Below, piece after piece: positions 12,134 to 33,614 of a stretch of 38,124 nt of DNA. The position numbers were made by a program, and so were the translations under genes. This stretch comes from Alphaproteobacteria bacterium HGW-Alphaproteobacteria-14 (GTDB lineage: Bacteria > Pseudomonadota > Alphaproteobacteria > Sphingomonadales > Sphingomonadaceae), in the NCBI GenBank assembly GCA_002842925.1, contig PHEL01000023.1, positions 1 through 38,124 on the forward strand, written 5' to 3'. Positions within the stretch are counted from its first letter, which is position 1, and each line of letters opens with the position of its first letter. Under the pieces are notes generated by a model. It had not been told where the DNA came from and searched no databases. It saw nothing but the letters and a program-made list of their open reading frames with translations.

Positions 12134-12345
12134 CGATCCTGCCCCCTCTGTCGGGTGACCTGAGAGACTGACCCTGCGCAAACGCGCGCAAGGCTTACCC
12201 CTTCGGTGGCCACGGATATTCATCCGAGGCGCTTTCCAGAGTGTCACGCAGCCGAGCGGTCCATTGGCCTGAGAGTTTCCGGGGCGGTTGCTCCTTCGGC
12301 GCCGCGCCCCGTTTGACCGGAGCAACGGGCTCTCCCGCTCGCCTG
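12134..12345 (-). promoter_or_regulatory. Tandem glycine riboswitch
   Basis: Read on the minus strand, the leader of gcvT holds two consecutive glycine aptamers. The first begins with GCGGGAGAGCCCG (near 12339), continues with GCCGAAGGAGCAACC, GGAAACTCTCAGGCCAATGG and CACTCTGGAAAGC. The second has CCACCGAAGGGGTAAGCC, GTCAGTCTCTCAGGTCACCCGACAGAGGGG and ends near 12134. The CCGAAGG and CTCTCAGG signatures present in each copy are the conserved glycine-binding core. Such RNAs turn on gcv expression when glycine is plentiful. The segment has no coding role, although a frame is open through it. Boundaries are estimated by eye. Confidence 0.93.
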
Positions 12346-12486
12346 CCCGCATAAGAATCGCTTCCCATGCGGATGACTCCCTGCGCTTGCGCGATTTGCT
12401 GCATTGCGTCAATCGGGGACGGCACAGTTAGCCCCGCGACAATCGCATTTGCCTGCGGGTAAGCTGCCGACTAAAGACGCAAGCGC

Positions 12487-19350: not shown

Positions 19351-19384
19351 AATGCCAGGGATCAGGCAATGCCAGGGGTCAGGC
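19351..19384. repeat. Tandem 17-bp direct repeat at the end of the sorB gene
   Basis: AATGCCAGGGATCAGGC (19351-19367) is followed at once by AATGCCAGGGGTCAGGC (19368-19384), 16 of 17 bases identical. The second copy contains the stop codon of the cytochrome gene (19379-19381). It looks like a recent local duplication at the 3' end of the operon. No function is apparent. Confidence 0.6.
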
Positions 19385-19714
19385 CCCGCCGGGGTTGGCA
19401 ACCTGCGCAGCCTGCACCGCGACGAAATAATCGACGATTTCCGGGATCGCCTGTTCATCCACCGGCGCCTTGTAGGTCTCGATCATCTTGCTCACCATCG
19501 ATTCCCACTTCGCGCGCGGAACCTGCGGCTGTTGCAGCATGGTTGATGGCGAATGGCAGGCCGTGCAATTTTCCACTACCGCCTGCAAGCCGGGGCCGGG
19601 CGGCAATTCGGCAGGATCATCGGGCAAGGTAATCGCCGCATTGACAAACACCACGTCCGGCCTGCTGTCACAGCCTGCCAGCAGGACTGCAAGGATGATC
19701 GCCCAGTGCTTCAT
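19379..19714 (-). CDS. sorB: Lipoprotein c-type cytochrome, likely sulfite dehydrogenase subunit
   Basis: A 111-residue cytochrome c. A signal peptide with lipobox LLAGC (C15) suggests a lipid-anchored periplasmic protein. The single haem site is CTACH (C50, C53, H54), and Met residues in the segment WESMVSKMIETY can supply the distal ligand. ATG 19714 overlaps the stop of the molybdenum subunit gene as ATGA and is preferred over a longer upstream reading. By analogy with SorB it should accept electrons from the Mo subunit and pass them to the respiratory chain. In this locus its job is disposal of the sulfite released from sulfoquinovose. The symbol rests on context as much as on sequence. 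Confidence 0.8.
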   Translation of the reverse strand: MKHWAIILAVLLAGCDSRPDVVFVNAAITLPDDPAELPPGPGLQAVVENCTACHSPSTMLQQPQVPRAKWESMVSKMIETYKAPVDEQAIPEIVDYFVAVQAAQVANPGGA

Positions 19715-20955
19715 TGTGCCCTCAGGTTGATGCGTTCGATGACGTTGCGGGCATAGCCGCTCGGGTTCCACGCCTGTTCGGCGGGCTGCGTGATCCCGTT
19801 GGCATTGGTGGCGCGCACGCCGATCTGCGCCAGGTCCCCGGTCACTTCGGGGATGCGCAGCGTCCAGCGCCTGAAGCCATATGTGCCTTCATCCGGGCCA
19901 AGTTTGCAGGGCAATTCCAGCCCCGCGCCCACCAGATCAACTCTGGCGAGCGCCGCGTCGCCGCCCATCGCAATCCCGCGCAGTTCCAGCGGCTGACCCA
20001 GCGCGATGATCGCACCATCGGCATGGCTGGTGATGAAGGAGCGCGGCGGCATGACGCTGACCGGAACCGTTTCGAAGCCCTTGTCCTGCGGCGTTACCGG
20101 AGCAGTGGGAACCCGGTAGGTCTTGGCGACGTAGTAGCTGTCATCATCGCCGGTCAGCACTTCGATGGTGCTCAGCATCTTGACCCAATAGGTCGAAAAC
20201 CACCCCGGCACGACGATCCGCAGCGGGTATCCGTGCAGCAGCGGCAGCGGTTCACCGTTCATGCCCCATGCCACCAGCACATCATCACGCATGGCGATAT
20301 CGATCGGGATCGACTTGATGAATTGCGGCGCACCGTCCACCATCGGCACGTCCAGTCCGGCAAAGCGCACGCGTGCGGCACCATCGGCCACGCCTGCCTT
20401 GGCCAGCACATCCTTCAACCGCACACCGGTCCAGCGCGCGCATCCCATCGCGCCATTGCCCCATTGGCCTCCGGTCACGCGCGGCTGAGAAAACCCGCGA
20501 CCATTGCCAGCGCATTGGTTGATCGCGACCACATCGACATGATCGCCCGCATTGGCGACATCATCGAGCGTCAGCGACACCGGCTGTCGCACCGCTCCAC
20601 CCACCGCCACGCGGTGCGCAGCGGCGTTGATCTGGGTCGGCATGTCCCAGTTCCAGCGCACGAAAAAGCGGTCATTGGGAGTGATCGTGCCGTGATCGAA
20701 CACCGCCATCGGGGTTTCAAGCACCGGGGGACGGACGCGATGGACAATCATTTCGCCCTTGCCGGGAAAGCGCGGGGTGAGCGGACGCTCGCTCGGCCCG
20801 CCGGGCAGGCCGAGGTCGATCATGCCGTCACCGATCAGGCGCTGCGCCAGCACCGGCGCAGCCAGCACACCGCCGCCCGCTCCGGCCAGCAACGCACGGC
20901 GGGTAAACCGGGATCGCGTCTTGCCGTTTGCGCTATTGCCATCCGCCATCTTCAC
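19711..20955 (-). CDS. sorA: Molybdopterin sulfite dehydrogenase, catalytic subunit
   Basis: A 414-residue periplasmic enzyme of the sulfite oxidase family. Residues 17-38 form a twin-arginine signal (SRFTRRALLAGAGGGVLAAPVLA). The Mo-cofactor domain has FFVRWNWDMP, then AINQCAGNGRGF with C148 in the place of the molybdenum-ligating cysteine, and HGYPLRIVVPGWFSTYWVKML. The C-terminal dimerisation domain ends with GVRATNANGITQPAEQAWNPSGY. It oxidises sulfite to sulfate and reduces the cytochrome encoded next to it. The GTG start at 20955 overlaps the preceding stop; ATG 20949 is an alternative. An SoxCD-type sulfur dehydrogenase is a less likely reading, because no Sox genes are present. Confidence 0.9.
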   Translation of the reverse strand: MKMADGNSANGKTRSRFTRRALLAGAGGGVLAAPVLAQRLIGDGMIDLGLPGGPSERPLTPRFPGKGEMIVHRVRPPVLETPMAVFDHGTITPNDRFFVRWNWDMPTQINAAAHRVAVGGAVRQPVSLTLDDVANAGDHVDVVAINQCAGNGRGFSQPRVTGGQWGNGAMGCARWTGVRLKDVLAKAGVADGAARVRFAGLDVPMVDGAPQFIKSIPIDIAMRDDVLVAWGMNGEPLPLLHGYPLRIVVPGWFSTYWVKMLSTIEVLTGDDDSYYVAKTYRVPTAPVTPQDKGFETVPVSVMPPRSFITSHADGAIIALGQPLELRGIAMGGDAALARVDLVGAGLELPCKLGPDEGTYGFRRWTLRIPEVTGDLAQIGVRATNANGITQPAEQAWNPSGYARNVIERINLRAQ

Positions 20956-21527
20956 GCCCTTTCTGCGCCCGCGCTTTCGATCCGCGCGAGCAAGGTGCCA
21001 ATATCGGCCACCGCCAGCCCGTGATCGCGCAGCAGATCGCCAATATCATCAATCCGCGCCATTTCGCCATCATCGCGCATGATCGAACAGATCACCGCAG
21101 CATCGCCAGCACCTGCCAGCCGCGCAAGATCGATCGAAGCCTCGCACGCCGAAGGGCGCGCCAGCACGCCGCCTGATTGCGCAATCAGCGGAAACACGTG
21201 GCCGGGCGAATGAATATCGGCCGCACTTGATCCCGGCGCAATCGCGACTGTGACCGTGTGTGCGCGGTCGGCGGCGGAAATGCCGGTTGAAACCCCGCTT
21301 GCCGCTTCGATCGATCGGGCAAAGGGCCGCCCGGTTTGGCGATGCGTTCCGGTATTGATCAGACTCAGGCCCAACCGCTTGGCCAGCTCTGGCGTGATCG
21401 CCAGACAGATCAGCCCGCGGCCGTGAGTGGCCATGAAATTGATTGCTGACGGTGTGACGTGGCGGGCAGCGATCATCAGATCAAGATCCCCGCCGCGCAG
21501 CCGGTCACCCGCCAGCACCACGATCAA
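20952..21527 (-). CDS. Divergent RibB-like (DHBP synthase) protein, start uncertain
   Basis: About 191 residues from TTG 21527. It clearly belongs to the 3,4-dihydroxy-2-butanone 4-phosphate synthase family: HVTPSAINFMATHGRGLICLAITPELAKRLGL, GVSTGISAADRAHTV, SPGHVFPLIAQSGGVLARPSACEASIDLARLAG. True RibB makes the four-carbon precursor of riboflavin. Here the N-terminal helix (~20 residues) is missing, and the acidic DDEDRENEGD metal/substrate loop reads VLAGDRLRGGD, so three acidic positions are lost. A GTG at 21544 overlaps the previous stop, as at other junctions here, but meets a TGA after six codons; one inserted base would join it to the RibB frame. It is either a frameshifted gene, a pseudogene, or a derived protein started at TTG. 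It may support flavin supply or have a new role. Confidence 0.7.
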   Translation of the reverse strand: MIVVLAGDRLRGGDLDLMIAARHVTPSAINFMATHGRGLICLAITPELAKRLGLSLINTGTHRQTGRPFARSIEAASGVSTGISAADRAHTVTVAIAPGSSAADIHSPGHVFPLIAQSGGVLARPSACEASIDLARLAGAGDAAVICSIMRDDGEMARIDDIGDLLRDHGLAVADIGTLLARIESAGAERA

Positions 21528-21540
21528 GCAGTATCGGTGT

Positions 21541-22113
21541 TCACCGCAACTCCCTCCCCGCGGCAAAGCTGCGGGCGCCCAGCACCACCTGCTTGCCGAC
21601 CAACTCCAATTGCCCGCGCGCGCGTTCATCAAGGCATTCGCCATCGGGAGAAAACAGCCCGCGATAGGTGCGGATGGTAGCGCCCATCGGGGTCGGCCAG
21701 CCGCGCAGAGCATGGGTGATCGCGCGCATCGTCAACAGCGTGCTCATCGATGCCTGATCGCCGAACGCGGTCGCGATCAGCCCGACCGCGCGCCCATCCA
21801 GATAGGGGCGTTCATCGCGGGCGAGATCTTCAAGGTAATCGAGCGCGTTCTTGACCACACCGGAAATCGTGCCGTGATAGCCGGGCGCAGCGATCAGCAA
21901 GCCATCGGCCTCACGCACGGCGGCGACCATCTCCGCCCCGCACGAAGGATCATGCGTCGGGCCGAGATAGTGCGGCAGCGCGGTGAGATATTCGCCGCCG
22001 AACACCTGCACCGTCGCCCCTTCGCCAGCGGCAATGCCGGCGGCAAGTCGCAACACCTGTTCGGTCGTGCTGCCGGGATTGACCGTGCCGCCAAGGGCCA
22101 CGATGGTGGTCAT
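21541..22113 (-). CDS. NAD(P)H-dependent FMN reductase (flavodoxin fold)
   Basis: A 190-residue member of the SsuE/NADPH-dependent FMN reductase family. The FMN phosphate loop is ALGGTVNPGSTTEQVL (6-21), and the isoalloxazine contact region is AAPGYHGTISGVVKNALDYLEDL (75-97). It supplies reduced FMN to two-component monooxygenases. ATG 22113 overlaps the glpD stop as ATGA. In this locus it is the evident partner of the SsuD-like sulfoquinovose monooxygenase encoded at 32511, i.e. it takes the SmoA role, although it sits in the other operon about 10 kb away. I have not assigned the smoA symbol because the family may differ from that of the Agrobacterium protein. Confidence 0.85.
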   Translation of the reverse strand: MTTIVALGGTVNPGSTTEQVLRLAAGIAAGEGATVQVFGGEYLTALPHYLGPTHDPSCGAEMVAAVREADGLLIAAPGYHGTISGVVKNALDYLEDLARDERPYLDGRAVGLIATAFGDQASMSTLLTMRAITHALRGWPTPMGATIRTYRGLFSPDGECLDERARGQLELVGKQVVLGARSFAAGRELR

Positions 22114-23597
22114 GAGAGTGCCGTCCTTTCGGTGATATATTGGGCCAGCCGCGCGGCTTGTTCCGCCGTGAAATGGAGGCCAAGCTTGGTGCGCCGCCAC
22201 AACACGTCCTCGGCGGTGCGCGCCCATTCGGTATCGATCAGATAATCGACTTCAGCAGCGGTCAACCCATGGCCGAAATCCTCGCCCAGATCGGCGGAGC
22301 GGGTGGCCGCGCCAAGGATCGCCCATGCGCGAGTGCCGTATAGCCGGATCAGCCGCACCGCCTTTTGCGGGCCGATAAAAGGGTAGGCTGCGGCCAGTTC
22401 ACGCGCTTTGGCCGGGGCTTCATCACGCCCGAAATCACCGCCGGGCAGCGGCGCGCCGTGGGTCCATTCCGCTCCATCAAGCGCGGGGCACAGTGGTGCG
22501 AGGCGTTCAATCGCTTCGGTGGCGAGGTGGCGGTAGGTGGTGATCTTGCCGCCGAACACCGACAGCAGCGGTGCCTCACCCGTGCCGCCATCCAGTTCAA
22601 AGCGATAACCGCGGGTCGCGGCCTCGGGCCTGCCCGAACCATCATCGACCAGCGGGCGCACGCCCGAATAGGTCCACACCACATCATCCGGCGTGATCGG
22701 GGTGCGGAAATATTCGGAGGCGCCCGCACACAGATAAGCGATTTCATCAGGGCTGGCGCGCACCTCATCCAGCCCGGCGGTGTGATCGACATCAGTGGTG
22801 CCGATCAGGGTGAAATCCTGTTCATAGGGAATGGCGAAGAAGATGCGCCCATCGGGGAGCTGGAAGAAATAGGCGAAATCGTGCTCAAATACCTTGCGCA
22901 CCACGATATGCGATCCACGCACCAGCCGCATCCGCTGGCTGGTCGGCTCACCCGCCTGGCCCAGCACGTCCAGCACGCGCGGCCCGGCGGCGTTAACCAC
23001 ACAGCGCGCCCGGAACTGTTCGCCCCCGGCGGTGATCAGCCAGCTATCACCCTGCCGGGCAAGCGCCGTCACCTCGCAGCGGGTACGGATGTCCGCGCCG
23101 CGATCCGCCGCATCGCGCGCATTCAGCACCACCAGCCGCGCATCATCGACCCAGCCATCCGAATAGGCAAAGGCGCGGGTATATTCGGGCTTGAGCGGCA
23201 CGCCTGCCGGGTGGTTTGCCAACTTCACCGACTGCGTGGGCGGCAAGTGCTTGCGCCCGCCGATGTGGTCATACAGAAACAGCCCCAGCCGCAGCAGCCA
23301 GCGCGGACGCAGGCCGGGGCGGTGTGGCAGGATAAAGCGCATTGGCCAGATGATATGCGGAGCGATGCCCCACAGCACCTCGCGCTCGCTCAATGATTCG
23401 CGCACCAGTGCAAATTCATAATGCTCCAGATAACGCAGTCCGCCGTGGATCAGCTTGGTCGAGGATGACGAGGTGCCTTGCGCCAGATCGCCGCGTTCGA
23501 GCAGCAGCACCCGCGCCCCGCGCCCGGCGGCATCGCGGGCAATCCCCGCGCCGTTCACCCCGCCGCCGATTACCGCAAGATCATAGGTCGCTTCCAT
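22110..23597 (-). CDS. glpD: FAD-dependent glycerol-3-phosphate dehydrogenase
   Basis: About 495 residues. The FAD motif is DLAVIGGGVNGAGIARDAAGRG, followed by the GlpD signature TSSSSTKLIHGGLRYLEHYEFALVRESLSER. A C-terminal DAO_C domain contains EVDYLIDTEWARTAEDVLWRRTKLGL. GlpD oxidises glycerol 3-phosphate to dihydroxyacetone phosphate at the membrane, feeding quinone. ATG 23597 gives a TGATG overlap with the exporter gene; an in-frame ATG at 23609 is possible. No glpK or glpF is nearby. Its place between a sulfate exporter and an FMN reductase suggests that it handles glycerol released from sulfoquinovosyl glycerol. An alternative is oxidation of a C3 sulfonate that mimics glycerol 3-phosphate; this is speculative. 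Confidence 0.92.
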   Translation of the reverse strand: MEATYDLAVIGGGVNGAGIARDAAGRGARVLLLERGDLAQGTSSSSTKLIHGGLRYLEHYEFALVRESLSEREVLWGIAPHIIWPMRFILPHRPGLRPRWLLRLGLFLYDHIGGRKHLPPTQSVKLANHPAGVPLKPEYTRAFAYSDGWVDDARLVVLNARDAADRGADIRTRCEVTALARQGDSWLITAGGEQFRARCVVNAAGPRVLDVLGQAGEPTSQRMRLVRGSHIVVRKVFEHDFAYFFQLPDGRIFFAIPYEQDFTLIGTTDVDHTAGLDEVRASPDEIAYLCAGASEYFRTPITPDDVVWTYSGVRPLVDDGSGRPEAATRGYRFELDGGTGEAPLLSVFGGKITTYRHLATEAIERLAPLCPALDGAEWTHGAPLPGGDFGRDEAPAKARELAAAYPFIGPQKAVRLIRLYGTRAWAILGAATRSADLGEDFGHGLTAAEVDYLIDTEWARTAEDVLWRRTKLGLHFTAEQAARLAQYITERTALS

Positions 23598-24688
23598 CAG
23601 ACTGCCCATTTTGCAAATGCGAGCGCCACGCCAAGCGAAGCGATGGTCGCCGCCAGCACCGGCATAACCGAGCGCCAGCCCAGTTGCAGCAGCAGATCGG
23701 TGCGAGTGCGCATCGCGGTCGCGGTCACCGCCAGCAACAACAGGGTCTTGGACGCAAGCAGCGCATTGTCCGCGACCACGATTGGCAAGCCGAGCAACGA
23801 ATTGACCCCGACCAGCGCAAGGAAAGCGAGAATGAAGCCGGGCAGCATCGGCACCCGCGCACCTGTGCCCGCATCAGCAACCGGATAAGCGCGCGCAATC
23901 CATAGCGCCGCCAGCGTCACCAGCGGGGCCAGCAATGCCACCCGGGTCAGTTTGACCACGGTCGCCTGCGCCCCGGCGGAATCGGACACGGCAAAGCCAG
24001 CACCAATTGCCTGGGCTACATCATGGATCGATGCGCCGACCAGAAACCCCGCCTGCGCATCGTTGAAACCCAGCATCTGGGTCAGCGCCGGATAGGTGGT
24101 CAGCGCGATGGCCGATGCCGCAGCCAGAATTACCAGCGTCAGTGTAAACTGCGCCTGATCGATCCGTTCGCGCCCGATCACGCCATACAGCGCCAGCGCC
24201 GCAGATGCGCCGCAGATCGCCGTCGCGCCGCCCGCCAGCAGCCCGACCGATGCGCTTTGCCTCGTGGCCCGCGCCGCCAGCAGTGCCGCGACCACCGCCG
24301 CCGACATCACCAGCGCAAGGCCGAGAAACGGCACCGCCCCCATCGCGACCACCTGCATCACCGTCACCTGAAAGCCGAGCAGCACGATCCCCACCCTGAG
24401 ACCGTGGCGCGAGGCAGCATCCAGCCCCGCATGGGTGCGCGCATCGCCAGCGGCGAAATTGAGCGCGAGTCCGATCAACAGGCCAGCAAGGATGACCGGG
24501 ACACCGTAATTCTGGCTGAGCCATGCAGCAGCGGCGCTGGCAATAATGCAGATCGCCAGACCGGGCACGAACCGGGAAAGCGGCTCGCGCGCCGCCGCCC
24601 GGTTCGCCGCAGCCGTATCGGCCAGCATGATTTCCCCGAACAGATCGCCGGCATAGGCATCAAAGTCAGTCCGCCGCTTGTCCATCAT
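23597..24688 (-). CDS. YeiH/UPF0324 family putative sulfate exporter
   Basis: A 363-residue inner-membrane protein with about 10 hydrophobic segments. Family marks are VPVILAGLLIGLALNF, GLRVGIVLLGFQVT, GLLAGGATAICGASAALALYGVIGR and FLVGASIHDVAQAIGAGFAVS. COG2855 proteins of this kind (SuyZ and relatives) are found beside sulfonate-degrading genes and are thought to export sulfate. It is the first gene of the six-gene minus-strand operon that ends in the sulfite dehydrogenase, so the natural reading is export of sulfate made by SorAB or of cytosolic sulfite. ATG 24688 (MMDKRR) is chosen; an N-terminal cytosolic tail of about 40 residues precedes the first membrane span. Confidence 0.85.
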   Translation of the reverse strand: MMDKRRTDFDAYAGDLFGEIMLADTAAANRAAAREPLSRFVPGLAICIIASAAAAWLSQNYGVPVILAGLLIGLALNFAAGDARTHAGLDAASRHGLRVGIVLLGFQVTVMQVVAMGAVPFLGLALVMSAAVVAALLAARATRQSASVGLLAGGATAICGASAALALYGVIGRERIDQAQFTLTLVILAAASAIALTTYPALTQMLGFNDAQAGFLVGASIHDVAQAIGAGFAVSDSAGAQATVVKLTRVALLAPLVTLAALWIARAYPVADAGTGARVPMLPGFILAFLALVGVNSLLGLPIVVADNALLASKTLLLLAVTATAMRTRTDLLLQLGWRSVMPVLAATIASLGVALAFAKWAV

Positions 24689-24793
24689 CTCGAACTGACC
24701 ATGCGCATCGTGTTCCGGAAAGTCTCGCCCATGTTTTCTGTCCTACGGTGTCACACCACTAGACCGCACACCATCTGAATGCAACCGCACCGC
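24689..24793 (-). promoter_or_regulatory. Spacer ahead of the sulfate-exporter operon with inverted repeat
   Basis: The 105-bp gap between the MFS gene and the exporter operon contains GGTGTCACACC (24748-24758), a perfect 5+1+5 inverted repeat. The extended half CGGTGTCA recurs in the divergent spacer upstream of the sulfoquinovosidase (28542-28549). A shared site for the locus LacI-type regulator is possible, but the symmetry does not match a classic LacI operator with a central CG. No strong -35/-10 pair was identified. Confidence 0.35.
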
Positions 24794-26059
24794 TCATACA
24801 GCAGCGCTCAACGCACCTTCATCGCGGCGGATGGTTGGCAATAGCCACTGGAACCACGCCAACGCAATCAGATAGGAGCTGGCGGCGAACACGAACAGCG
24901 GCACGAACCCGAATCCGGCATCCAGCACCCGGCCTGCGATCAGGCTGATCGCTACCCCGCCCATATTGCCCATAAACGCGCCAAACGCCGTTACCCGGCC
25001 CACCTTGGCGTTGGGCACAACGTCGGTGATGGTCGAAAAGATCGACAGCGAAAAGCCCTGATGCCCAGCCATCACTACGCCGATCATGCAGGCCACCGGC
25101 CAGAACGAATTAAGCTCCAGCACCAATGGCAGCGGCGCCACCATCAGCGCCGATATCAGCATCACCCCCTTGCGCACCCGGTTGACCCCCCAGCCACGTT
25201 CGAGCAGCCGGGTCGACCCCCAACCCGCCAGCAACGCGCCCAGCCCCGATCCGGCAAAGGCAATCGCCAGCGGCACGCCCAATTCGATCGTCGAAAGGCC
25301 GAATTCCTTGCGGTAGTAATCCGCCAGCCAGAAGTTGATGAACCACCATGTCATGTCGGATAGCGCCTTGGCCCCGACGATGGCCCAGGTTTTGCGGTTG
25401 GTCAGGATCGGGCCGTATCCGGCGGAGTCGCTGCCGCTTTCGGCTGGCGCTTCGTCAACGGTGCGTTCGCGCAGCTGCGCCAGCCCGCGCGCAAGCCAGA
25501 TCCATGCCAGCAACGATATAAACCCGCCGATCCCGCCCGCGACCAGCGCGCCGCGCCAGCCCACTGTCAGCGCCAGTGCCGGGATCACAAACGGCATCGC
25601 AATCGTGCCAGCACCCGCCAGCATCGTCGCAAACCCGAACGCGAAGGATCGCTGGTTCGGCGGAAACAGCGTCGCCACCGTCTTGATGGTCAGCGGGGTC
25701 TGCACCGCCTCTGTCAGCCCCAGTCCGATCCGCGCTGTTACCACCTGCCACGTGGTTATCGCCCAGCCATGGGCGATGGCGGCCAGGCTCCACGCCGATG
25801 CGCCGACCTGCATCGAACGGTTCACGCCCAGCCGATCAACCAGCCAGCCGGTAAACAGAAACGCAAAGGCTGCGGAAAATTGCGTGACCGCCGCCAGATC
25901 ACCGAAATCACTGTCGCTCCAGCCGAAATCGGCCATCATGTCGGGTTTGAGAATGGCGATGATCGGGCGATCCATCGCGTTGAACACCCCGGCGATGCAC
26001 AACACCGTGAACAGCGACCAGCGCAGGCGGCTGGACAGGGGTGAAGATTGTGCGGCCAT
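24794..26059 (-). CDS. MFS permease, likely sulfoquinovose or SQ-glycoside uptake
   Basis: A 421-residue major facilitator superfamily transporter with 12 predicted spans. The first loop carries motif A (GWLVDRLGVNRSM), and FNAMDRPIIAILKPDMMADFGWSDSDFG at the N-terminus is in the style of the anion:cation symporter (hexuronate, glucarate) group. ATG 26059 follows AGGAG by 6 nt. It lies between the TonB-dependent receptor and the exporter operon, all on the minus strand. By position it should bring sulfoquinovose or sulfoquinovosyl glycerol across the inner membrane, replacing the ABC importer of the Agrobacterium pathway. The substrate assignment is inference from context. Confidence 0.85.
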   Translation of the reverse strand: MAAQSSPLSSRLRWSLFTVLCIAGVFNAMDRPIIAILKPDMMADFGWSDSDFGDLAAVTQFSAAFAFLFTGWLVDRLGVNRSMQVGASAWSLAAIAHGWAITTWQVVTARIGLGLTEAVQTPLTIKTVATLFPPNQRSFAFGFATMLAGAGTIAMPFVIPALALTVGWRGALVAGGIGGFISLLAWIWLARGLAQLRERTVDEAPAESGSDSAGYGPILTNRKTWAIVGAKALSDMTWWFINFWLADYYRKEFGLSTIELGVPLAIAFAGSGLGALLAGWGSTRLLERGWGVNRVRKGVMLISALMVAPLPLVLELNSFWPVACMIGVVMAGHQGFSLSIFSTITDVVPNAKVGRVTAFGAFMGNMGGVAISLIAGRVLDAGFGFVPLFVFAASSYLIALAWFQWLLPTIRRDEGALSAAV

Positions 26060-26113
26060 CACAGGCTCCTAGCGATCGGAAAAGGGGCGGGACAAGTTTG
26101 GCCGGACAAGACA

Positions 26114-26141
26114 AGGGCCGCCAGATCGCTCTGGCGGCCCT
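26114..26141 (-). terminator. Strong hairpin terminator after the TonB-dependent receptor gene
   Basis: A perfect 12-bp stem, AGGGCCGCCAGA with TCTGGCGGCCCT and a 4-nt loop (26126-26129), lies 30 bp beyond the receptor stop. On the minus strand it is followed by TGTCTTGTCC, a broken T-tract. It should end or weaken the receptor transcript before the MFS gene, so the receptor can be expressed at a different level from the permease. Confidence 0.75.
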
Positions 26142-26171
26142 GTTCTTATCATGCGACCAGAAGGCGCTCCA

Positions 26172-28430
26172 TCACATCCGGGCGCGCAGGCTGATCCCGA
26201 CATAACGATCCGCCTCACGCGGGATTTGCAGGCGCTGGCCATTGCCAACATTCAGCAGCGCGAAGCTTTCATCGGTGATATTGCGGATATGGAAGGTCAG
26301 GCGATAGCGGTCATCCGGATCGGAAAAGCCGACAGACGCGTTCCAGATGCCGTAGCCATCAAGCGGGCCGCTTTCGCCAAGATCGGAGAATTGCGAACTC
26401 AAGTGGCGAAAATCGGTATCAAGATGCAGCCCAAAGCCACCAAGGTCGGCTTCGTAACTGGCGCCCAGAGTATAGGTGAACTTGGGTGCCAGCGGCAATC
26501 TGGTGCCGTTGCGGGCATCAGGCGCGTTGGTGATCGGATTGGGGTTGAATTCCTTCACCTTGGCATCGGCATAGGCACCACTTGCGCGCAAGGTCAGTCC
26601 GCTGACCGGCACCACGACAAGATCGGCCTCGAAGCCTTCGGTCTTGACTGTGCCCGCATTGGTCAGATTTGTAATGATGGTGCCGTTCAGATTGATGAAG
26701 TTATTGGCTTGGAACCCATCATATTCAACCGTGAACGCGGCCAGGTTCAACTGCACCCGATTGTCGAGGAACTGCGATTTGATCCCCGCTTCGAATGCGT
26801 CGGATGTCTCGGCATCGATCGGCACAGCATTATTGGGCGCGGTGTGATTGAAGAACACGTTGAAGGCCGGACCCTTATACCCCCGCGTGTAGCTGGTGTA
26901 GAGCATGATGTCGTCTGCCGCATAAACCTGCAGAACGGCTTTGCCCGACAGATTGCCGTTGGTGCTGGAACCGGTCGACAGATTGGTGCCATTGCCGCCG
27001 CTGGCGATCGTGCCGCCTGCCGGGCTGCCCGATACGCCCGGCCCGGTTGCAGGCAAGCCATTGGCAGCGTTGACGCCCGGCGCGCGGAAATGGCTGAAAT
27101 CAAGATCGTCCCACGTGTAACGCAGCCCCCCGGTCAGCGCGATCATGTCATTGAAACGATAGGTGCCCTGACCGAACACCGCAAAGTTCTTCGATGTCAC
27201 GTCGCTGTCTGATGTTGCGGTGGGGAAAATCGTATTGACTGTGTCCGCAAGGTTGCATGGCTGACCGCCCGTCACCGGATCAATCGGCAATGTTGAACTG
27301 GCGCAGGTGATGACTTCGCGCGTGAACTGCTGCTTGTTGTCGGATTGCCAGGCGAATGCTCCGACCTGGTAGAAAAACGGTTCTGAAGCGTCCGAGGCCA
27401 ATCGCACTTCTAGCGAATATTGCTCGGTCTTTACAGTGCCGTCATCGTGCAATTCGGCAGTGCCGACCAGCGCGCGCGGAAGGAAATCGCCTTCACGAAT
27501 TTCGCGGTTCTTCCAGTTGCGATAGCCTGCAACAACGCTCAGCGTGTGGCTGGTGAAAACGTCGAAGTCCGCCGATGCGGTCAGGCTCCACTGTTCGTCG
27601 CGGGTCTGGGTGACCAGATTGTGGTTGACGTAGCGCTGATCAAGCCCCTGCGCCACGCCGCCGGGCAGGCCCAGTTCGGCATCCAGCACCGCACCCCGGC
27701 TGACCGTGGTGATATCGGCACAGCAATCATCATCCGCCTTGAAGTAATCGATATCGTCTTCCTGCCCACCAAAGACGTTGGTGATGTTGCCATCATAGGT
27801 ACCATAAAATCCGGTGATGCGACCGCTGAGGTTTTCGCCCAGCGGGCCGGAGATTGCAGCTCGCAGGCGATATTCATTGCCTTCAAACCATTCGGCGCGC
27901 GCTTCGGCTTCGAGAGTATCAGTGCCGCCCTTGGAAACCATGTTGACGAGGCCCGCCGAAGCGTTTTTGCCGAACAGGGTGCCCTGCGGCCCGCGCAGAA
28001 CTTCGATCCGCTCAAGATCGACAAGGTCCATGAACGCTTGTCCAGAACGCGACAGCACGACACCGTCGACAACGGTGGACACACTGGGTTCAGCGGCAAC
28101 CGAGAAGGTGATCGTGCCCACGCCGCGCATCACAATCGCGCTGTTAGCGCTGGTGGTGCCCTTGCGGAAAGTCACTGATGGAACCAGCCGCGTCAGCCCT
28201 TCAAGGCTGGTGGTGCCGGTTTGCTCAAGCCGATCGGCGGTGATTGCGGTGATTGCAATCGGAACATCTTGAACGTTTTCAGATACTTTTTGCGCGGTAA
28301 CGATGATTTCGGCAATGCCGCCGGTCGATGCAGACTCATCCTGCGCCAGCGTCGGCGCGGCCTGCATCAGCGCCAGGGAACTGACCGAAACGGCAAGCGC
28401 CTTGAACACAATTCGGGTGTTGGTGGACAT
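26172..28430 (-). CDS. TonB-dependent outer-membrane receptor, likely for SQ glycosides
   Basis: A 752-residue TonB-dependent receptor. Residues 1-29 are a signal peptide (ending PTLAQ). A TonB box-like IAEIIVTAQK follows, then the plug domain with VQDVPIAITAITADRLEQTG, VMRGVG and VDLERIEVLRGPQGTLFGKNASAGLVNMVSKGG, and a 22-strand-type barrel. The last residues (YVGISLRARM) lack the usual terminal aromatic residue. AGGGGAG precedes ATG 28430. In sphingomonads such receptors take up sugars and aromatic compounds. Divergent pairing with the sulfoquinovosidase operon argues for sulfoquinovosyl glycerol or a related sulfolipid head group. Without that context it would be a generic receptor. Confidence 0.92.
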   Translation of the reverse strand: MSTNTRIVFKALAVSVSSLALMQAAPTLAQDESASTGGIAEIIVTAQKVSENVQDVPIAITAITADRLEQTGTTSLEGLTRLVPSVTFRKGTTSANSAIVMRGVGTITFSVAAEPSVSTVVDGVVLSRSGQAFMDLVDLERIEVLRGPQGTLFGKNASAGLVNMVSKGGTDTLEAEARAEWFEGNEYRLRAAISGPLGENLSGRITGFYGTYDGNITNVFGGQEDDIDYFKADDDCCADITTVSRGAVLDAELGLPGGVAQGLDQRYVNHNLVTQTRDEQWSLTASADFDVFTSHTLSVVAGYRNWKNREIREGDFLPRALVGTAELHDDGTVKTEQYSLEVRLASDASEPFFYQVGAFAWQSDNKQQFTREVITCASSTLPIDPVTGGQPCNLADTVNTIFPTATSDSDVTSKNFAVFGQGTYRFNDMIALTGGLRYTWDDLDFSHFRAPGVNAANGLPATGPGVSGSPAGGTIASGGNGTNLSTGSSTNGNLSGKAVLQVYAADDIMLYTSYTRGYKGPAFNVFFNHTAPNNAVPIDAETSDAFEAGIKSQFLDNRVQLNLAAFTVEYDGFQANNFINLNGTIITNLTNAGTVKTEGFEADLVVVPVSGLTLRASGAYADAKVKEFNPNPITNAPDARNGTRLPLAPKFTYTLGASYEADLGGFGLHLDTDFRHLSSQFSDLGESGPLDGYGIWNASVGFSDPDDRYRLTFHIRNITDESFALLNVGNGQRLQIPREADRYVGISLRARM

Positions 28431-28578
28431 CGTAACTCTCTCCCCTCAAACCTGATCAACTCATTTGACGATCTTCAGATCATCGCCCGTGCGGTCGATC
28501 TTTGGACGCTTGAATTGCGCTTTCTGTCGCTATATGTCAAGCGGTGTCAGATAGCACCGGTGAGGGGAGTTAAGGGCG
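28431..28578. promoter_or_regulatory. Divergent promoter region of the sulfoquinovose locus
   Basis: This 148-bp spacer serves the receptor (minus) and the sulfoquinovosidase operon (plus). On the minus strand TGTCAA at 28535-28540 gives a consensus -35 TTGACA for the receptor, with only a weak -10 17 nt on. On the plus strand TTGAAT (28510) and TATATG (28531) are a poor -35/-10 pair. Symmetric elements are CGGTG-N8-CACCG (28542-28559) and GATCT-TC-AGATC (28470-28481), and TGTCA occurs twice 10 bp apart (28535 and 28545). One of these is probably the operator for the LacI-type protein encoded in the operon. GGGGAG at 28564-28569 is the ribosome site of the TTG-started sulfoquinovosidase. Confidence 0.5.
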
Positions 28579-30594
28579 TTGACGTCGCAGTTGGCTGCAC
28601 TTCAGGATGGATTCGCCCTGTTGCTGGGCGGGCATACTATTGTCAGTCACAGTTCTGGTTTGCCTGCCATTGCAATCAGTTCGGGCGCCCCCAAGGTTAC
28701 GATGGTGCGCGGCAATTTCCGGCTAAACGATAAGCTGCGCCCCGCAGCGCGACTTGACCAGTGCGCCCGCGTCGATGGCGGTTTTGTGCTCTCCAGCCGA
28801 GACGAAACCGCGCAGGTGGCGGTGCGGATCGCGCCTGATGGCGGGCGGTTCAGCCTTACGGCGCTGACTCCGCATGACCGCATCACCATCGATTTCAAAC
28901 CCGGCTCTGATGATGTGCTGTGGGGCGGCGGGGAACAGATGAGCTATCTTGCGCTCAACGGCCGCAAGTTTCCGATCTGGACGAGCGAGCCAGGGGTCGG
29001 GCGCGAGCCCGGCACTGCGCTGACCGATCAGGCCAGCGCCGACGGCTCGTTTGCAGGCGGCGATTACTGGACCACCAATTACCCTGAACCGACGGTGCTG
29101 TGTTCGGCGGGCTGGGCGCTGTCGCTGGCCAATGCCGACTATTGCGAGCTGGATGCGACCCACCCCGGACGGCTGCGCATTCACGTCTGGTCGGGCGAGG
29201 TGGCGATTGATCTGTTTTCGGGCGAACCGGCCGATTTGGTGCGCCAGCTCGGCGCGCGGTTCGGCCCGCGTCAGCCGCTACCCGAATGGGCGCTGGGCGG
29301 CGCGATAGTGGGGCTTAAGGACGGGGCGAACAGCTTTGATCGGCTCGAACGCATGATCGATGCAGGCGCGGCCATATCGGGGCTATGGTGCGAAGACTGG
29401 GTGGGCTTGCGCGAAACCAGCTTTGGTCGCCGCCTGTTCTGGGACTGGCAGTGGAACGCGGCACGCTATCCCGCCCTGCCCGATCGCATCGCGGCGCTGA
29501 AAGCGCGCGGCATCCGGTTTATGGGCTATGTTAACCCCTATCTGGCGGTTGATGGCCCGCTTTACGCTGAAGCCGCGGCAAAGGGATTTTGCGCGCGCCA
29601 GCTGGATCGTGACGCCCCCTATCTGGTCGACTTCGGCGAGTTCGACGCGGGCGTGGTCGATTTCACCAACCCGGCCGCGGCCGAATGGTTTGCCGAGGAG
29701 GTGATCGGCAAGCGGATGCTCGATTTCGGGCTGGATGGGTGGATGGCCGATTTCGGCGAATATCTACCGATTGATCTCAGGCTTCACGATGGCGATCCGA
29801 TGCAGGAGCACAACCGTTGGCCGGTGCGCTGGGCCGAGGTGAACGCGCGTGCGGTCGCATCGCGCGGGCGGACCGGCGATGTGCTGTGGTTCATGCGCGC
29901 AGGGCACACGGGCGTGCAGGCGCATTGCCCCTTGCTGTGGGCGGGCGATCAATCGGTCGATTTCAGCCGCCATGACGGCATCGGCACGGTGATCACCGCC
30001 GCGCTGTCATCGGGGCTGATCGGCAATGCCTTCAGCCATTCGGACGTGGGCGGCTATACCAGCCTGTTCGGCAATATCCGCAGCGCCGAACTGCTGTTGC
30101 GCTGGTATGAACTGGGCGCGTTCAGCCCGGTAATGCGCACGCATGAAGGAAACCGGCCCGACGACAACCTGCAGATCGACTCAAGCCCCGAACTGATCGA
30201 AGGCTTCGTGCGCTGGAGCCGTGTCCACGCCGCGCTCGCACCCTATGCGGCGCAACTGTTGACCGAGGCACAGGCCAGCGGCCTGCCCGCCATGCGCGCG
30301 CTGTTTCTGCACTATCCGCAAGACCGCCAAACTTTCACTATTCAGGATCAATTCCTGTATGGGGCCGACATAATGGTGGCACCGGTAATCGAAAGGGGGG
30401 CGGTCATGCGGCGGGTCTATCTACCAAGTGATAGCGGACAGGAATGGAACCATCTGTGGACGGGTGAGCCCTTCGCCCCCGGCTGGCATGACGTGTCTGC
30501 GCCGCTAGGTCAGCCGCCAGTGTTCACCCGCCCGAACAGCGGGTTCGCGGGGTTGTTTGCGCGGCTGCGCAATATCGGAGGCGATCGAGCATGA
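28579..30594 (+). CDS. smoI: GH31 sulfoquinovosidase
   Basis: A 671-residue glycoside hydrolase of family 31, close in length and sequence to E. coli YihQ (678). It hydrolyses alpha-sulfoquinovosides such as sulfoquinovosyl glycerol to free sulfoquinovose. The nucleophile is D391 in GWMADFGEYLP and the acid/base D457 in WAGDQSVD. The sulfonate pocket is complete: K247 (GLKDG), E272 (WCEDW), R285 and W288 (SFGRRLFWDW), and Y493 (GGYTSLF), the KERWY set known from the Agrobacterium enzyme, with the same spacing as I recall it. That rules out an ordinary alpha-glucosidase. The start is TTG 28579 with GGGGAG 9 nt upstream. No signal peptide is seen, so hydrolysis is cytosolic. It overlaps the LacI gene by 4 bp. 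Confidence 0.95.
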   Translation: MTSQLAALQDGFALLLGGHTIVSHSSGLPAIAISSGAPKVTMVRGNFRLNDKLRPAARLDQCARVDGGFVLSSRDETAQVAVRIAPDGGRFSLTALTPHDRITIDFKPGSDDVLWGGGEQMSYLALNGRKFPIWTSEPGVGREPGTALTDQASADGSFAGGDYWTTNYPEPTVLCSAGWALSLANADYCELDATHPGRLRIHVWSGEVAIDLFSGEPADLVRQLGARFGPRQPLPEWALGGAIVGLKDGANSFDRLERMIDAGAAISGLWCEDWVGLRETSFGRRLFWDWQWNAARYPALPDRIAALKARGIRFMGYVNPYLAVDGPLYAEAAAKGFCARQLDRDAPYLVDFGEFDAGVVDFTNPAAAEWFAEEVIGKRMLDFGLDGWMADFGEYLPIDLRLHDGDPMQEHNRWPVRWAEVNARAVASRGRTGDVLWFMRAGHTGVQAHCPLLWAGDQSVDFSRHDGIGTVITAALSSGLIGNAFSHSDVGGYTSLFGNIRSAELLLRWYELGAFSPVMRTHEGNRPDDNLQIDSSPELIEGFVRWSRVHAALAPYAAQLLTEAQASGLPAMRALFLHYPQDRQTFTIQDQFLYGADIMVAPVIERGAVMRRVYLPSDSGQEWNHLWTGEPFAPGWHDVSAPLGQPPVFTRPNSGFAGLFARLRNIGGDRA

Positions 30595-31604
30595 GCAGAG
30601 CCAATATCCGCGATGTCGCCGCGCGCGCCGGAGTGGCGGTGAAAACTGTCAGCCGGGTGCTCAACGGCCATCCTTATGTCAGCGATACCCTGCGCGGAAA
30701 GGTTGAGCAGGCGATGGCTGACCTGGACTTTCGTCCAAGCGTCGCCGCGCGCATCCTGTCGGGAGCCAAGTCCAACCAGGTAGCGCTGATTTACGACAAT
30801 CACAGCCCCTATTACATGTTCCAGATCCAGAAGGGCTGCTGGGATGTGTGCCACGAAAACGGCATCCGTTTGTTGGCCCAGCCAGTGGACGTGGCGGATC
30901 CGCGCGTGGGCGATCAGGTGCGCGGACTGGTCAGCGAAACCCACGTCGATGGGATCATCCTGTCATCCCCCGTGACCGATTGCGATCCGGTGCTGCGCGC
31001 GCTTGAATTGATGGACGTGCCGTTCGTGCGGATATCGCCGGGCACCAATCACGCGCTGACCAGTTCGGTGTTCATGGACGACGCGCAGGCCGCCGATGAC
31101 ATGACCACGCACCTGATCAACGCCGGCCACCGACGCATCGGCTTCATCAAAGGGCACACCAACCACATGGCATCGGATGATCGCCTGTTCGGCTATCGCC
31201 GCGCGCTTGACCGGGTCGGAATCCCGTTCGAACCGCATCTGGTTGTCGATGGCGAATTTGATTTTGACTCGGGTGTGCGAAGCGCGCGCGCCTTGCTCGA
31301 TCTGCCTGATCGGCCCACCGCGATCTTTGCCTCGAATGACGATATGGCGGCAGGCGTTCTGGCAGTGGCGCATGATCGCGGAATCAACGTGCCCGCCGAA
31401 CTATCGGTCGCGGGGTTCGATGATACCACGCTGGCCCGCACGGTCTGGCCGCCGCTCACCACCATCCGCCAACCGATGGCCGAACTGGCGCGCACCGCCA
31501 CTGAAATTCTGATTGCGGGTGGTGATATCAACCATCGCCGCCTGCCCCACACTCTGGTGGAGCGCGCCTCTGTCGCTCCGCCCAAAGGATCATCTCATGA
31601 GTGA
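30591..31604 (+). CDS. LacI-family regulator of the sulfoquinovose locus
   Basis: A 337-residue LacI/GalR regulator. The N-terminal helix-turn-helix and hinge read NIRDVAARAGVAVKTVSRVLNGHPYVSDTLRGKVEQAMADLDFRPSVAARIL. The periplasmic-binding-like domain follows, with VDGIILSSPVTD, GHRRIGFIKGH, PTAIFASNDDMAAGVLAVAHDRGINVPAELSVAGFDDT. It lies inside the operon, overlapping the sulfoquinovosidase by 4 bp and the reductase by 8 bp. It should repress the locus and be released by sulfoquinovose or a derived sugar; the inducer is inferred from context. The analogous regulator in Agrobacterium is SmoD. Confidence 0.92.
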   Translation: MSRANIRDVAARAGVAVKTVSRVLNGHPYVSDTLRGKVEQAMADLDFRPSVAARILSGAKSNQVALIYDNHSPYYMFQIQKGCWDVCHENGIRLLAQPVDVADPRVGDQVRGLVSETHVDGIILSSPVTDCDPVLRALELMDVPFVRISPGTNHALTSSVFMDDAQAADDMTTHLINAGHRRIGFIKGHTNHMASDDRLFGYRRALDRVGIPFEPHLVVDGEFDFDSGVRSARALLDLPDRPTAIFASNDDMAAGVLAVAHDRGINVPAELSVAGFDDTTLARTVWPPLTTIRQPMAELARTATEILIAGGDINHRRLPHTLVERASVAPPKGSSHE

Positions 31605-32511
31605 ACTGCCCCTCCCCCCTGTCACCCGCACGCTTGGCCATAGCGGCATTGCGGTGTCACCGATCGCGTGGGGCATGTGGCGTCTTGCTGAAAACGGGCG
31701 CACCGCAGGTGATGCAGCGCGGCTGGTGCACGCCGCGATCGATGCCGGGATCAGCTTTCTCGACACCGCCGATATCTACGGGTTTGACGGGTCAGGCGGC
31801 TTTGGTGATGCCGAGGCGCTGCTGGGCGAAGTGCTCGCCGCAGAGCCGGCCCTGCGCGCCCGTATGGTGCTCGCCACCAAGGGCGGGATCCTGCCCCCGC
31901 TGCCCTATGATCAGAGTGCGGATTATCTGCGCAAGGCGATCAACGCCTCGCTTACCCGGCTGAAGGTAGATCACGTTGACCTGTGGCAGATCCACCGCCC
32001 CGATATTCTCGCCCACCCGCAAGAGGTTGCCCGGGTGCTCGATGATGCGATCACATCGGGCAAGGTGCGCTGCCTGGGCGTGTCGAACTTCACGGCTGCG
32101 CAAATCGCGGCGCTGAACCATTTCCTGGGGCACAAGCTGGTTTCGACCCAGCCCGAAATCAGCCCGCTGCGCATCACCTGCTTTGAAAATGGCGAACTGG
32201 ATCAGGCGATGATGCTCGGCCTCACCCCGATGGCGTGGTCGCCGCTGGGTGGTGGGCTGCTGACTGCGCCTGAAAGTGCGCGTGACAAGGCGGTGGCCGC
32301 CGCGCTTGACGCGGTGGCGAGCGCGCAGGGCGTCTCGCGCACGGTCGCAGCCTATAGCTGGCTGATGGCGCATCCGGCCGGGATCATCCCGATCATCGGA
32401 TCGCAGAACCCCGAACGGATTGCCGAGGGTGCCGCTGCGCTGACAGTGCGCTGGACGCGGCAGGATTGGTATGCGGTGCTGGTCGCCGCGCGTGGAGAGA
32501 GGCTTCCGTGA
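31597..32511 (+). CDS. smoB: Aldo-keto reductase, probable 6-oxo-glucose reductase
   Basis: A 304-residue aldo-keto reductase with TIM-barrel fold. The catalytic tetrad is visible: D56 and Y61 in FLDTADIYG, K95 in VLATKGG, and H133 in VDLWQIHRPD. The NADP-binding end has IIPIIGSQNPERIAEG. AAAGGA lies 7 nt before ATG 31597. In the sulfo-SMO pathway SmoB reduces 6-oxo-glucose, the product of oxidative desulfonation of sulfoquinovose, to glucose with NADPH. Placement directly ahead of the monooxygenase gene (1-bp TGATG overlap) supports that job. By sequence alone it would only be a general aldo-keto reductase. Confidence 0.85.
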   Translation: MSELPLPPVTRTLGHSGIAVSPIAWGMWRLAENGRTAGDAARLVHAAIDAGISFLDTADIYGFDGSGGFGDAEALLGEVLAAEPALRARMVLATKGGILPPLPYDQSADYLRKAINASLTRLKVDHVDLWQIHRPDILAHPQEVARVLDDAITSGKVRCLGVSNFTAAQIAALNHFLGHKLVSTQPEISPLRITCFENGELDQAMMLGLTPMAWSPLGGGLLTAPESARDKAVAAALDAVASAQGVSRTVAAYSWLMAHPAGIIPIIGSQNPERIAEGAAALTVRWTRQDWYAVLVAARGERLP

Positions 32512-33614
32512 TGACTGAGACACAAACCCCCAAGCAACAATGCGAAATCGCGTGGTTTTCCGCGCTGTGCGATGATGATTACGAATTTCTCGGCGTGCCC
32601 GACAAATATCTGCAATCGAGCTGGGAGCATTGCCGTAACATCGTGCTGCGCGCCGAAGAGGGCGGGTTCGACAATATCCTGCTGCCTTCGGGCTATCAGC
32701 TAGGGCTCGATACCACGATCTTCGCCGCTGCTGTGGCAACGCAGGTGCAGCGGATCAAGCTGCTGTGGGCGACCCGGATGGGCGAAGACTGGCCGCCGCA
32801 ACTGGCGCGCCGGATTGCAACGCTTGATCGCATCCTTGGCCCCAACGCGGCTGGTACGGGCGGGCGGTTAAACGTCAATATCATCTCGTCCGACATGCCA
32901 GGCGAAAGGGTCGAGAGCGGCCCCCGCTACCGCCGCGGCACAGAAATCATGAAGATCGTGCGCACGCTGCTCAATGGCGAGCATCTCGATTTTCAGGGCG
33001 AGTTTTACCAGATGAAGCTCGATCCGCCGCGCATCACCACGCTGTCGGGCAAGTGCCCGCCGTTCTATTTCGGCGGTCTTAGCCATGAAGCGCGCGAATG
33101 CGCCGCCGAAGCCTGCGATGTCTATCTGATGTGGCCCGACACCATGGACAAGGTGCGCGAAAATATCGCCGACCTGAAAGCCCGCGCCGCCAATTACGGA
33201 CGCACGCTGAAGTTTGGCTACCGCGCCCACGTGATCGTACGCGAAACCGAGGATGAAGCGCGCGCCTATGCCGACCGGCTGCTGTCAAAGCTGGATGATG
33301 AAGCCGGGCGGGCAATCCGCGAAAAGTCGCTCGATGCCAAGAACTACGGCGTCCAGCGCCAGCAGGAATTGCGCGGGGCCGCCGATGGCGACGGGTTTGT
33401 CGAGGAAAACCTGTGGACCGGGATCGGCCGCGCGCGGTCGGGCTGCGGAGCGGCAATCGTTGGCACACCCGATCAGGTACTGGCCAAGCTGCGCGCCTAT
33501 CAGGACGAGGGGATCGAGGCGTTCATCCTGTCAGGCTATCCGCACGCGCAGGAGGCCGACATGTTCGCCCGCCACGTACTGCCGCACATCCAGCACGGCC
33601 CGTTGAACCTGTAA
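32511..33614 (+). CDS. smoC: FMNH2-dependent sulfoquinovose monooxygenase (SsuD-like)
   Basis: A 367-residue luciferase-like monooxygenase close to alkanesulfonate monooxygenase SsuD. Residues lining the SsuD active site are kept: W208 (VYLMW), R238 and H240 (YRAHVIVRET), R309 (GRARSGCGAAIVG), Y343 (ILSGYPH). The SsuD Cys54 position is L64. Using reduced FMN and O2 it should split the C-S bond of sulfoquinovose, giving 6-oxo-glucose and sulfite. Its reductase partner is probably the FMN reductase at 21541. It is the last gene of the operon. An alkanesulfonate substrate is possible by sequence, but the neighbouring sulfoquinovosidase makes sulfoquinovose far more likely. ATG 32511 is chosen, with GGAGAGAGG 8 nt upstream. 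Confidence 0.88.
   Translation: MTETQTPKQQCEIAWFSALCDDDYEFLGVPDKYLQSSWEHCRNIVLRAEEGGFDNILLPSGYQLGLDTTIFAAAVATQVQRIKLLWATRMGEDWPPQLARRIATLDRILGPNAAGTGGRLNVNIISSDMPGERVESGPRYRRGTEIMKIVRTLLNGEHLDFQGEFYQMKLDPPRITTLSGKCPPFYFGGLSHEARECAAEACDVYLMWPDTMDKVRENIADLKARAANYGRTLKFGYRAHVIVRETEDEARAYADRLLSKLDDEAGRAIREKSLDAKNYGVQRQQELRGAADGDGFVEENLWTGIGRARSGCGAAIVGTPDQVLAKLRAYQDEGIEAFILSGYPHAQEADMFARHVLPHIQHGPLNL

Follow-up and report, generated by a model that had tools for sequence, protein, structure and literature searches.

Can a single regulated stretch of a sphingomonad genome equip a cell to take in the sugar of plant sulfolipid, break its carbon-sulfur bond and dispose of the sulfur? The question is raised by 12 genes at 19379-33614 (open reading frame (ORF) coordinates) in a 38,124-nucleotide stretch of Alphaproteobacteria bacterium HGW-Alphaproteobacteria-14 (contig PHEL01000023.1, positions 1 to 38,124), called the window below. 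Sulfoquinovose (SQ), the sugar head of plant sulfolipid, is among the largest pools of organic sulfur. The genes lie in two divergent sets around one conserved site, and we consider it highly probable from their sequences that they encode an oxidative SQ monooxygenase (SMO) pathway, sulfo-SMO, for sulfoquinovosyl glycerol (SQGro), with one LacI-type operator between the two sets.

Core enzymes, gene order and distribution

The core enzymes were identified by comparison with all solved structures in the PDB and with 78 sphingomonad SMO loci (L033, which holds the host's own RibBA contig, was excluded). The GH31 protein best matched chains 5ohy and 5ohs (775 and 773 bits), followed by four further YihQ-like chains at 574-625 bits; the next chain scored 139.5. 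Residues K247, E272, R285, W288 and Y493, which we take to be the KERWY sulfonate-binding set, and D391 and D457 are invariant in 50/50 aligned sequences (the window and the 49 of 78 loci scoring >600 bits). The sulfoquinovosidase fingerprint that a preliminary description of this DNA had claimed is indeed present, with all residues of the set and the catalytic Asp pair aligned with those of 5ohy/5ohs. The monooxygenase best matched 7olf (370 bits) and 7oh2 (366 bits), while SsuD-type chains reached at most 206, and it scored 249 bits against the alkanesulfonate monooxygenase model, whose cut-off is 518. The best matches of the aldo-keto reductase (AKR) were 7bbz and 7bby (183 bits), with the next family at 149. 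These three pairs of chains are presumably the Agrobacterium/Rhizobium sulfoquinovosidase, SMO and SmoB. The PDB titles of the best matches read 'Alpha-glucosidase yihQ', 'Methanesulfonate sulfonatase', 'Alkanesulfonate monooxygenase' and 'Aryl-alcohol dehydrogenase'.

The plus-strand set runs GH31, LacI, AKR and LLM monooxygenase, and by their coordinates the start and stop codons of all three neighbouring pairs (GH31-LacI, LacI-AKR and AKR-SMO) overlap. The minus-strand set runs TonB receptor, MFS permease, YeiH, GlpD, FMN reductase, RibB-like, SorA and SorB. The features, in order of position, are:

19379..19714 (ORF open from 19771), minus strand: SorB-like monohaem c-type cytochrome lipoprotein; NCBIfam SorB 78.5 bits, under the cut-off of 93; no match to Pfam; CTACH motif and LAGC lipobox found by eye
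19711..20955, minus strand: SorA-like molybdenum sulfite dehydrogenase with twin-arginine-like signal; PF00174, 178 bits; NCBIfam SorA 437.5 bits, under the cut-off of 600; best PDB match 2blf, 319 bits
20952..21544, minus strand: RibB-like gene, derived from DHBP synthase, with catalytic residues replaced and its 5' end frame-shifted in the window; PF00926 (DHBP_synthase), 191 bits
21541..22113, minus strand: NAD(P)H-dependent FMN reductase of the SsuE/MsuE superfamily; PF03358, 79.6 bits; under the SsuE and MsuE model cut-offs
22110..23609, minus strand: GlpD, FAD glycerol-3-phosphate dehydrogenase; NF009906, 747 bits, cut-off 352
23597..24688, minus strand: YeiH-family membrane protein, proposed sulfite exporter; PF03601, 149.6 bits (cut-off 24.5); TIGR00698, 81 bits, under the cut-off of 232.6
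24794..26062, minus strand: MFS permease, proposed inner-membrane importer of SQ-glycerol or SQ; PF07690, 171 bits; nearest NCBIfam model TIGR00893, 117 bits, under the cut-off of 395
26114..26141, either strand: 12-pair stem-loop free of mismatches; it lies between the TonB and MFS genes and resembles a terminator whichever strand is read
26172..28430, minus strand: TonB-dependent outer-membrane receptor, proposed to take up SQ-glycerol; PF00593 and PF07715; none of its best 25 NCBIfam models reached its own cut-off
28535..28549, plus strand: conserved site TGTCAAGCGGTGTCA, putative LacI-family operator shared by the two divergent sets
28579..30594, plus strand: GH31 sulfoquinovosidase; PF01055; K247/E272/R285/W288/Y493 and D391/D457
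30591..31604, plus strand: LacI-family regulator; PF00356 and PF13377
31597..32511, plus strand: AKR, 6-oxo-glucose reductase of SmoB/SquF type; PF00248; best PDB match 7bbz
32511..33614, plus strand: FMNH2-dependent SMO of SmoC/SquD type; PF00296; best PDB matches 7olf and 7oh2

All nine components named in the preliminary description were recovered at 19379-33614 by Pfam, NCBIfam and PDB matches; GlpD and the RibB-like gene had been overlooked. A flavin reductase is usual but not required in a sulfo-SMO cluster; here it is present as the PF03358 protein, though by cut-off it is neither an SsuE nor an MsuE equivalog. The SorA and SorB equivalog models were likewise not reached, yet the best PDB match of SorA is the SorA chain 2blf, and we class the pair as SorAB-like.

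The same neighbourhood was sought in other Sphingomonadales and found. By the best 80 of more than 579 matches, the named relatives that carry the SMO gene are species of Erythrobacter and Porphyrobacter, then of Novosphingobium, Blastomonas, Sphingopyxis, Tsuneonella and others, and several same-genus loci carry SMO genes identical to Erythrobacter/Porphyrobacter records. Erythrobacter colymbi (L105) and E. tepidarius (L125) have the locus, and their SMO genes are the same as those of L028 and L030. SMO occurs in 27 of 61 same-genus genomes (G013 and G031 hold short fragments, G016 and G036 partial genes) and in 78 of 298 family genomes, representing 36 of 96 genera (E<=1e-60). Among the 78 loci we counted AKR in 76, TonB in 72, MFS in 64, LacI in 58, GH31 in 50, YeiH in 45, GlpD in 39, FMN reductase in 38, RibB-like in 35, SorA in 20 and SorB in 16; these counts are lower bounds, since stretches may end at contig or fetch ends, and those for TonB, MFS and LacI take in distant homologues. 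All 12 genes are present in 16/78 loci and in 15 of the 19 same-genus loci; the exceptions are L017, L021 and L032, which lack SorAB, and L031, which is on a short contig. Because the same gene order recurs in same-genus genomes, the locus is not a chance assembly. The closest locus, L093, equals L095 (PHEB01000013.1). Large plasmids also carry SMO (29 of 72,556 records, E<=1e-80), and a 1.06-Mb plasmid of N. humi matches all 12 queries (MFS at only 37% identity) and has the conserved site as well as a glycerol kinase. A conserved metF/ArsR flank was considered and rejected: it was seen only in L093 and L142 among the 100 of 158 relatives' loci listed, many of whose stretches end too early to show the flank.

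Elsewhere, on a Rhizobium sp. WSM4643 plasmid (L186, NZ_CP104041.1 66445-91512), a monooxygenase 69% identical to the window SMO adjoins an apparent sulfo-Entner-Doudoroff (sulfo-ED) cluster of GH31, SDR, lactonase, aldolase, dehydratase, ABC transporter and LacI genes. Either two SQ routes share one locus there or the monooxygenase has another job. The window itself also contains tandem glycine riboswitch aptamers (12138-12347, minus strand) upstream of gcvT of a glycine cleavage operon.

Regulation, substrate and the fate of sulfite

The TonB-GH31 intergenic region contains a conserved imperfect palindrome, TGTCAAGCGNTGTCA. We compared 46 such regions (that of the window and those of the 45 loci where the genes on either side were both located): the palindrome is exact in 43, has one mismatch in L085 and L086 and is absent from L071. 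It occurs once in the whole 2.75-Mb genome, in which a reversed control pattern had 0 matches. When up to three mismatches were allowed, the window held three matches against 1.06 expected, one of them exact. One-mismatch sites outside the TonB-GH31 region were found in L070 and L185. The LacI-family repressor from the adjacent operon would be the natural reader of the palindrome, and we predict that it binds there. The 12-pair stem-loop could set the TonB receptor apart from the other minus-strand genes, although the total of terminator-like sites there (15) was not above that of shuffles (mean 12.2, standard deviation 3.2).

From the gene content we infer the following substrates and directions of transport. 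SQGro would cross the outer membrane through the TonB receptor and the inner membrane through the MFS permease, and the cytoplasmic GH31 enzyme would split it into glycerol and SQ. Supplied with FMNH2 by the FMN reductase of the locus, SMO would convert SQ to sulfite and 6-oxo-glucose, which the AKR would reduce to glucose. The glycerol would be phosphorylated by GlpK, encoded elsewhere in the genome, and then oxidised by the GlpD of the locus. Sulfite would leave the cytoplasm, probably through YeiH, and periplasmic SorAB would oxidise it to sulfate and pass the electrons to cytochrome c.

SQGro is the proposed substrate because GlpD in the locus and GlpK in the loci of some relatives point to glycerol release. 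Among the 158 relatives' loci, which contain 144 distinct SMO genes, 25 have GlpK matches, 23 of them at >=55% identity and two (L074 and L083) at only 36-37%. The host encodes its own GlpK on contig C1 (615 bits against a cut-off of 590).

The preliminary description had YeiH export sulfate. This reading, in which sulfite is oxidised in the cytoplasm, agrees with the description of TIGR00698, which annotates the YeiH family as a putative sulfate exporter. We nonetheless find it unlikely: the translation of SorA begins with a twin-arginine-like signal, that of SorB has a lipobox and a CxxCH haem site, and SorA resembles the 2blf enzyme, which we take to be periplasmic. Since these signals suggest that SorAB, and with it sulfite oxidation, is periplasmic, YeiH is more likely to be the candidate sulfite exporter of the locus.

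Several observations weigh against the SQGro pathway as drawn. Three TauE-family proteins encoded elsewhere in the genome score over their cut-off and could export sulfite instead of YeiH. SorA is present in only 20/78 and SorB in only 16/78 of the relatives' stretches, so the pathway does not always include sulfite oxidation. At the threshold used, 28/78 SMO stretches have no GH31. The lead of the AKR's best match on other AKRs is small (183 vs 149 bits), and SorA, SorB, YeiH and the FMN reductase all score below their NCBIfam cut-offs. Finally, pairs of GlpD and FMN reductase are found in genomes that have no SMO as well (L206-L208). As to the stretches that lack GH31 (L057-L070 and similar), their sulfoquinovosidase may belong to another family, such as GH188.

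The last of these points, seen in three of six extra stretches (L206, L207 and L208), would also fit a second alternative, that the half of the locus with GlpD, FMN reductase, RibB-like and SorAB is an unrelated adjacent operon for membrane-lipid glycerol or flavin metabolism; the stem-loop, which parts the TonB and MFS genes, would fit it as well. Such an arrangement is very unlikely. In other genera GlpD, FMN reductase and RibB-like often lie downstream of SMO and not beside YeiH; they change side of the SMO operon across genera yet stay in the locus, which argues that their association survives rearrangement. Moreover, the RibB-like gene is found only in SMO-positive genomes (24/24), and on plasmid pLA3 of N. 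pentaromativorans US6-1 (NZ_CP009292.1) GlpD and GlpK directly follow SMO. The SMO-negative pairs (L206 also has YeiH) may be remnants or may serve a second purpose. The superfamilies of SMO and FMN reductase and the 249-bit model match would suit a generic SsuD/SsuE-like locus that scavenges sulfur from alkanesulfonates, with an unrelated alpha-glucosidase beside it. This reading is very unlikely, as that match is far under its 518-bit cut-off, SMO scores 370 bits to 7olf against 206 to SsuD-type chains (on which plain scavenging was ruled out), GH31 scores 775 bits to 5ohy with the first chain beyond the YihQ-like group at 139.5, and SorAB and GlpD suggest use as a carbon source, with the sulfite disposed of, and not the scavenging of sulfur.

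A RibB-like family beside the FMN reductase

Why should an SQ locus contain a relative of a riboflavin gene? Ordinary flavin supply was considered and rejected: the host has a canonical RibBA elsewhere, on contig C173, and the family in the locus lacks the catalytic residues. We compared 37 intact RibB-like members, all distinct, with 19 canonical sequences at the metal-binding and catalytic residues that we assume to be Ec E38, H153 and E174. The loop Glu, metal-site His and conserved Glu are found in 19, 18 and 19 of the 19 canonical sequences and in 1, 0 and 0 of the 37 RibB-like proteins, which at these residues do not resemble a DHBP synthase (RibB). The canonical loop DDEDRENEGD is rewritten in the RibB-like proteins, two Thr are also replaced in 37/37, and Arg at positions 84 and 168 (L016 numbering) is invariant. 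The sequences place the copy in the locus in a family distinct from canonical RibBA; against the PDB, the family profile matched 6mnz at 201 bits.

The distribution of the family follows that of SMO. RibB-like genes were found in 24/298 family genomes (profile A2, E<=1e-68, >=274 bits), and every one of them belongs to the 78 genomes with SMO (hypergeometric P 5e-16, with relatedness ignored). In 23 of them the gene is within ~13 kb of SMO, and G175 carries it on a different contig. Among 385 genomes sampled across the class, the window alone exceeded 222 bits. In a phylum-wide sample of 398 genomes (profile A3), three sphingomonads, all SMO-positive, exceeded 300 bits, and four other genomes scored 231-235 bits with frames of 377-432 amino acids, the size of RibBA. 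Among 48 plasmid records with RibB matches, two, both from N. humi, were more than 60% identical. Plasmid ribB genes at 53% identity were rejected as members, since the three checked of the 46 records below 60% (Croceicoccus marinus, Novosphingobium sp. ES2-1 and Sphingopyxis sp. FD7) all have canonical motifs, and a 48%-identical match in L206 was rejected on the same ground.

The RibB-like gene is also closely tied to its neighbour. FMN reductase is present in 35/35 RibB-like loci (of the 78), and the RibB-like start codon overlaps the FMN reductase stop in 28/54 rows, where overlap was scored only if the spacing read -1 (it is +2 in L041 and +4 in L142, and the gene is broken in L093). The median pairwise ratio of nonsynonymous to synonymous substitution (dN/dS) of RibB-like is 0.13 (17 loci), indicative of purifying selection; the medians are 0.18 for FMN reductase, 0.18 for GlpD, 0.25 for SorA (14 loci), 0.13 for AKR, 0.08 for LacI and 0.07 for SMO. 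The residue pattern and the low dN/dS argue that in the relatives RibB-like is a constrained protein that lacks the known catalytic residues.

We judge the following proposal to be about as likely as not: sphingomonad sulfo-SMO loci hold an unrecognised family, a DHBP synthase minus its metal-binding catalytic residues and plus invariant Arg, recruited beside the FMN reductase, often with overlapping genes, into SQ desulfonation, where it would handle reduced flavin for SMO or act on the sulfosugar or 6-oxo-glucose, for example as a mutarotase or ring-opener. Flavin handling with the neighbouring FMN reductase may be the first choice and action on the sulfosugar the second. On the latter, SQ mutarotation is described as slow (half-life about 300 min), a step for which other SQ pathways have YihR or the putative SqvB (PMC9594981), whereas the passages on sulfo-ASMO name no such protein. 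Among the open-licence titles listed, none concerned the RibB-like family.

Other findings weigh against a role for RibB-like in SQ desulfonation. The gene is missing from over half of the SMO stretches, and the FMN reductase is shared with genomes that have no SMO: exclusivity was rejected when 90/298 family genomes matched (E<=1e-30), with the SMO-negative G164, G184, G185 and G322 at >=258 bits. Furthermore, the RibB-like gene in the window has a 34-base gap near its 5' end relative to eight relatives, which shifts the frame and brings a stop after six codons, and in the closest relative, L093/L095, the gene is broken by a different gap, of 61 bases, further in. With the gene lost separately in these two sister genomes, RibB-like is dispensable in the window genome and in L093.

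Contig C203, the window, belongs to a 2.75-Mb assembly of 233 contigs (completeness ~95%), which has matches to photosynthetic reaction-centre proteins (PF00124). In this assembly pufL and pufM are each in two frames (contig C63, 49597-51206), from decayed phototrophy or assembly indels. Because of these frame breaks, small indels in the host assembly may be errors; the 34-base gap is less easily explained in this way. RibB-like would be an accessory component in the relatives, one that has been lost, or is being lost, in the host species.

If the SQGro pathway is correct, sphingomonads, here a host with reaction-centre genes, could mineralise SQ alone, with a single regulated unit delivering glucose, glycerol and sulfate, and the locus offers a testable receptor, operator and sulfite route. 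RibB-like, a conserved, catalytically altered vitamin-B2 enzyme, would be a candidate new part of a pathway of carbon-sulfur cleavage.

Comparison with known systems

The sulfo-SMO system of Agrobacterium tumefaciens likewise combines a GH31 sulfoquinovosidase, an FMNH2-dependent monooxygenase, an AKR and a LacI-type regulator, presumably within a gene set SmoA-I. The window differs in having a TonB receptor and an MFS permease in place of what we take to be an ABC transporter, in its PF03358 FMN reductase, and in holding GlpD, SorAB, YeiH and RibB-like in the locus. Canonical RibB/RibBA proteins are homologous to RibB-like (PF00926), but the loop Glu is replaced in 36/37 RibB-like proteins and the metal-site His and conserved Glu in 37/37 each.

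Sulfo-SMO, or sulfo-ASMO, is established in Agrobacterium and has been reported, with SquD and SquF, in the sphingomonad Novosphingobium aromaticivorans DSM 12444, which shares the core enzymes of the window (PMC9594981, PMC12890257). The core pathway of the locus was already known in a sphingomonad, and the RibB-like family is the more novel part. The sequence supports the preliminary proposal of a sulfo-SMO route that comes with import, a flavin reductase and sulfite oxidation of its own; sulfate export is unlikely. The N. aromaticivorans cluster is said to be without an SsuE-type flavin reductase, whereas the window has an FMN reductase, and the passages on that cluster in PMC9594981 and PMC12890257 do not mention glycerol, sulfite-oxidation or RibB-like genes. 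Novosphingobium has also been found to assimilate 13C-SQ, and the closest genomes were predicted to use sulfo-ASMO, according to PMC13372026. The titles listed from the open-licence literature, a scope outside which the original pathway papers fall, included none about Erythrobacter using SQ or about SQ being taken up through TonB receptors.

The 29-kb stretch of plasmid pLA3 had no match to the FMN reductase, RibB-like, YeiH, SorA or SorB queries. It has the same TonB-GH31-LacI-AKR-SMO order and the same exact site as the window and, unlike the window, keeps GlpK in the locus, as part of a GlpD-GlpK pair.

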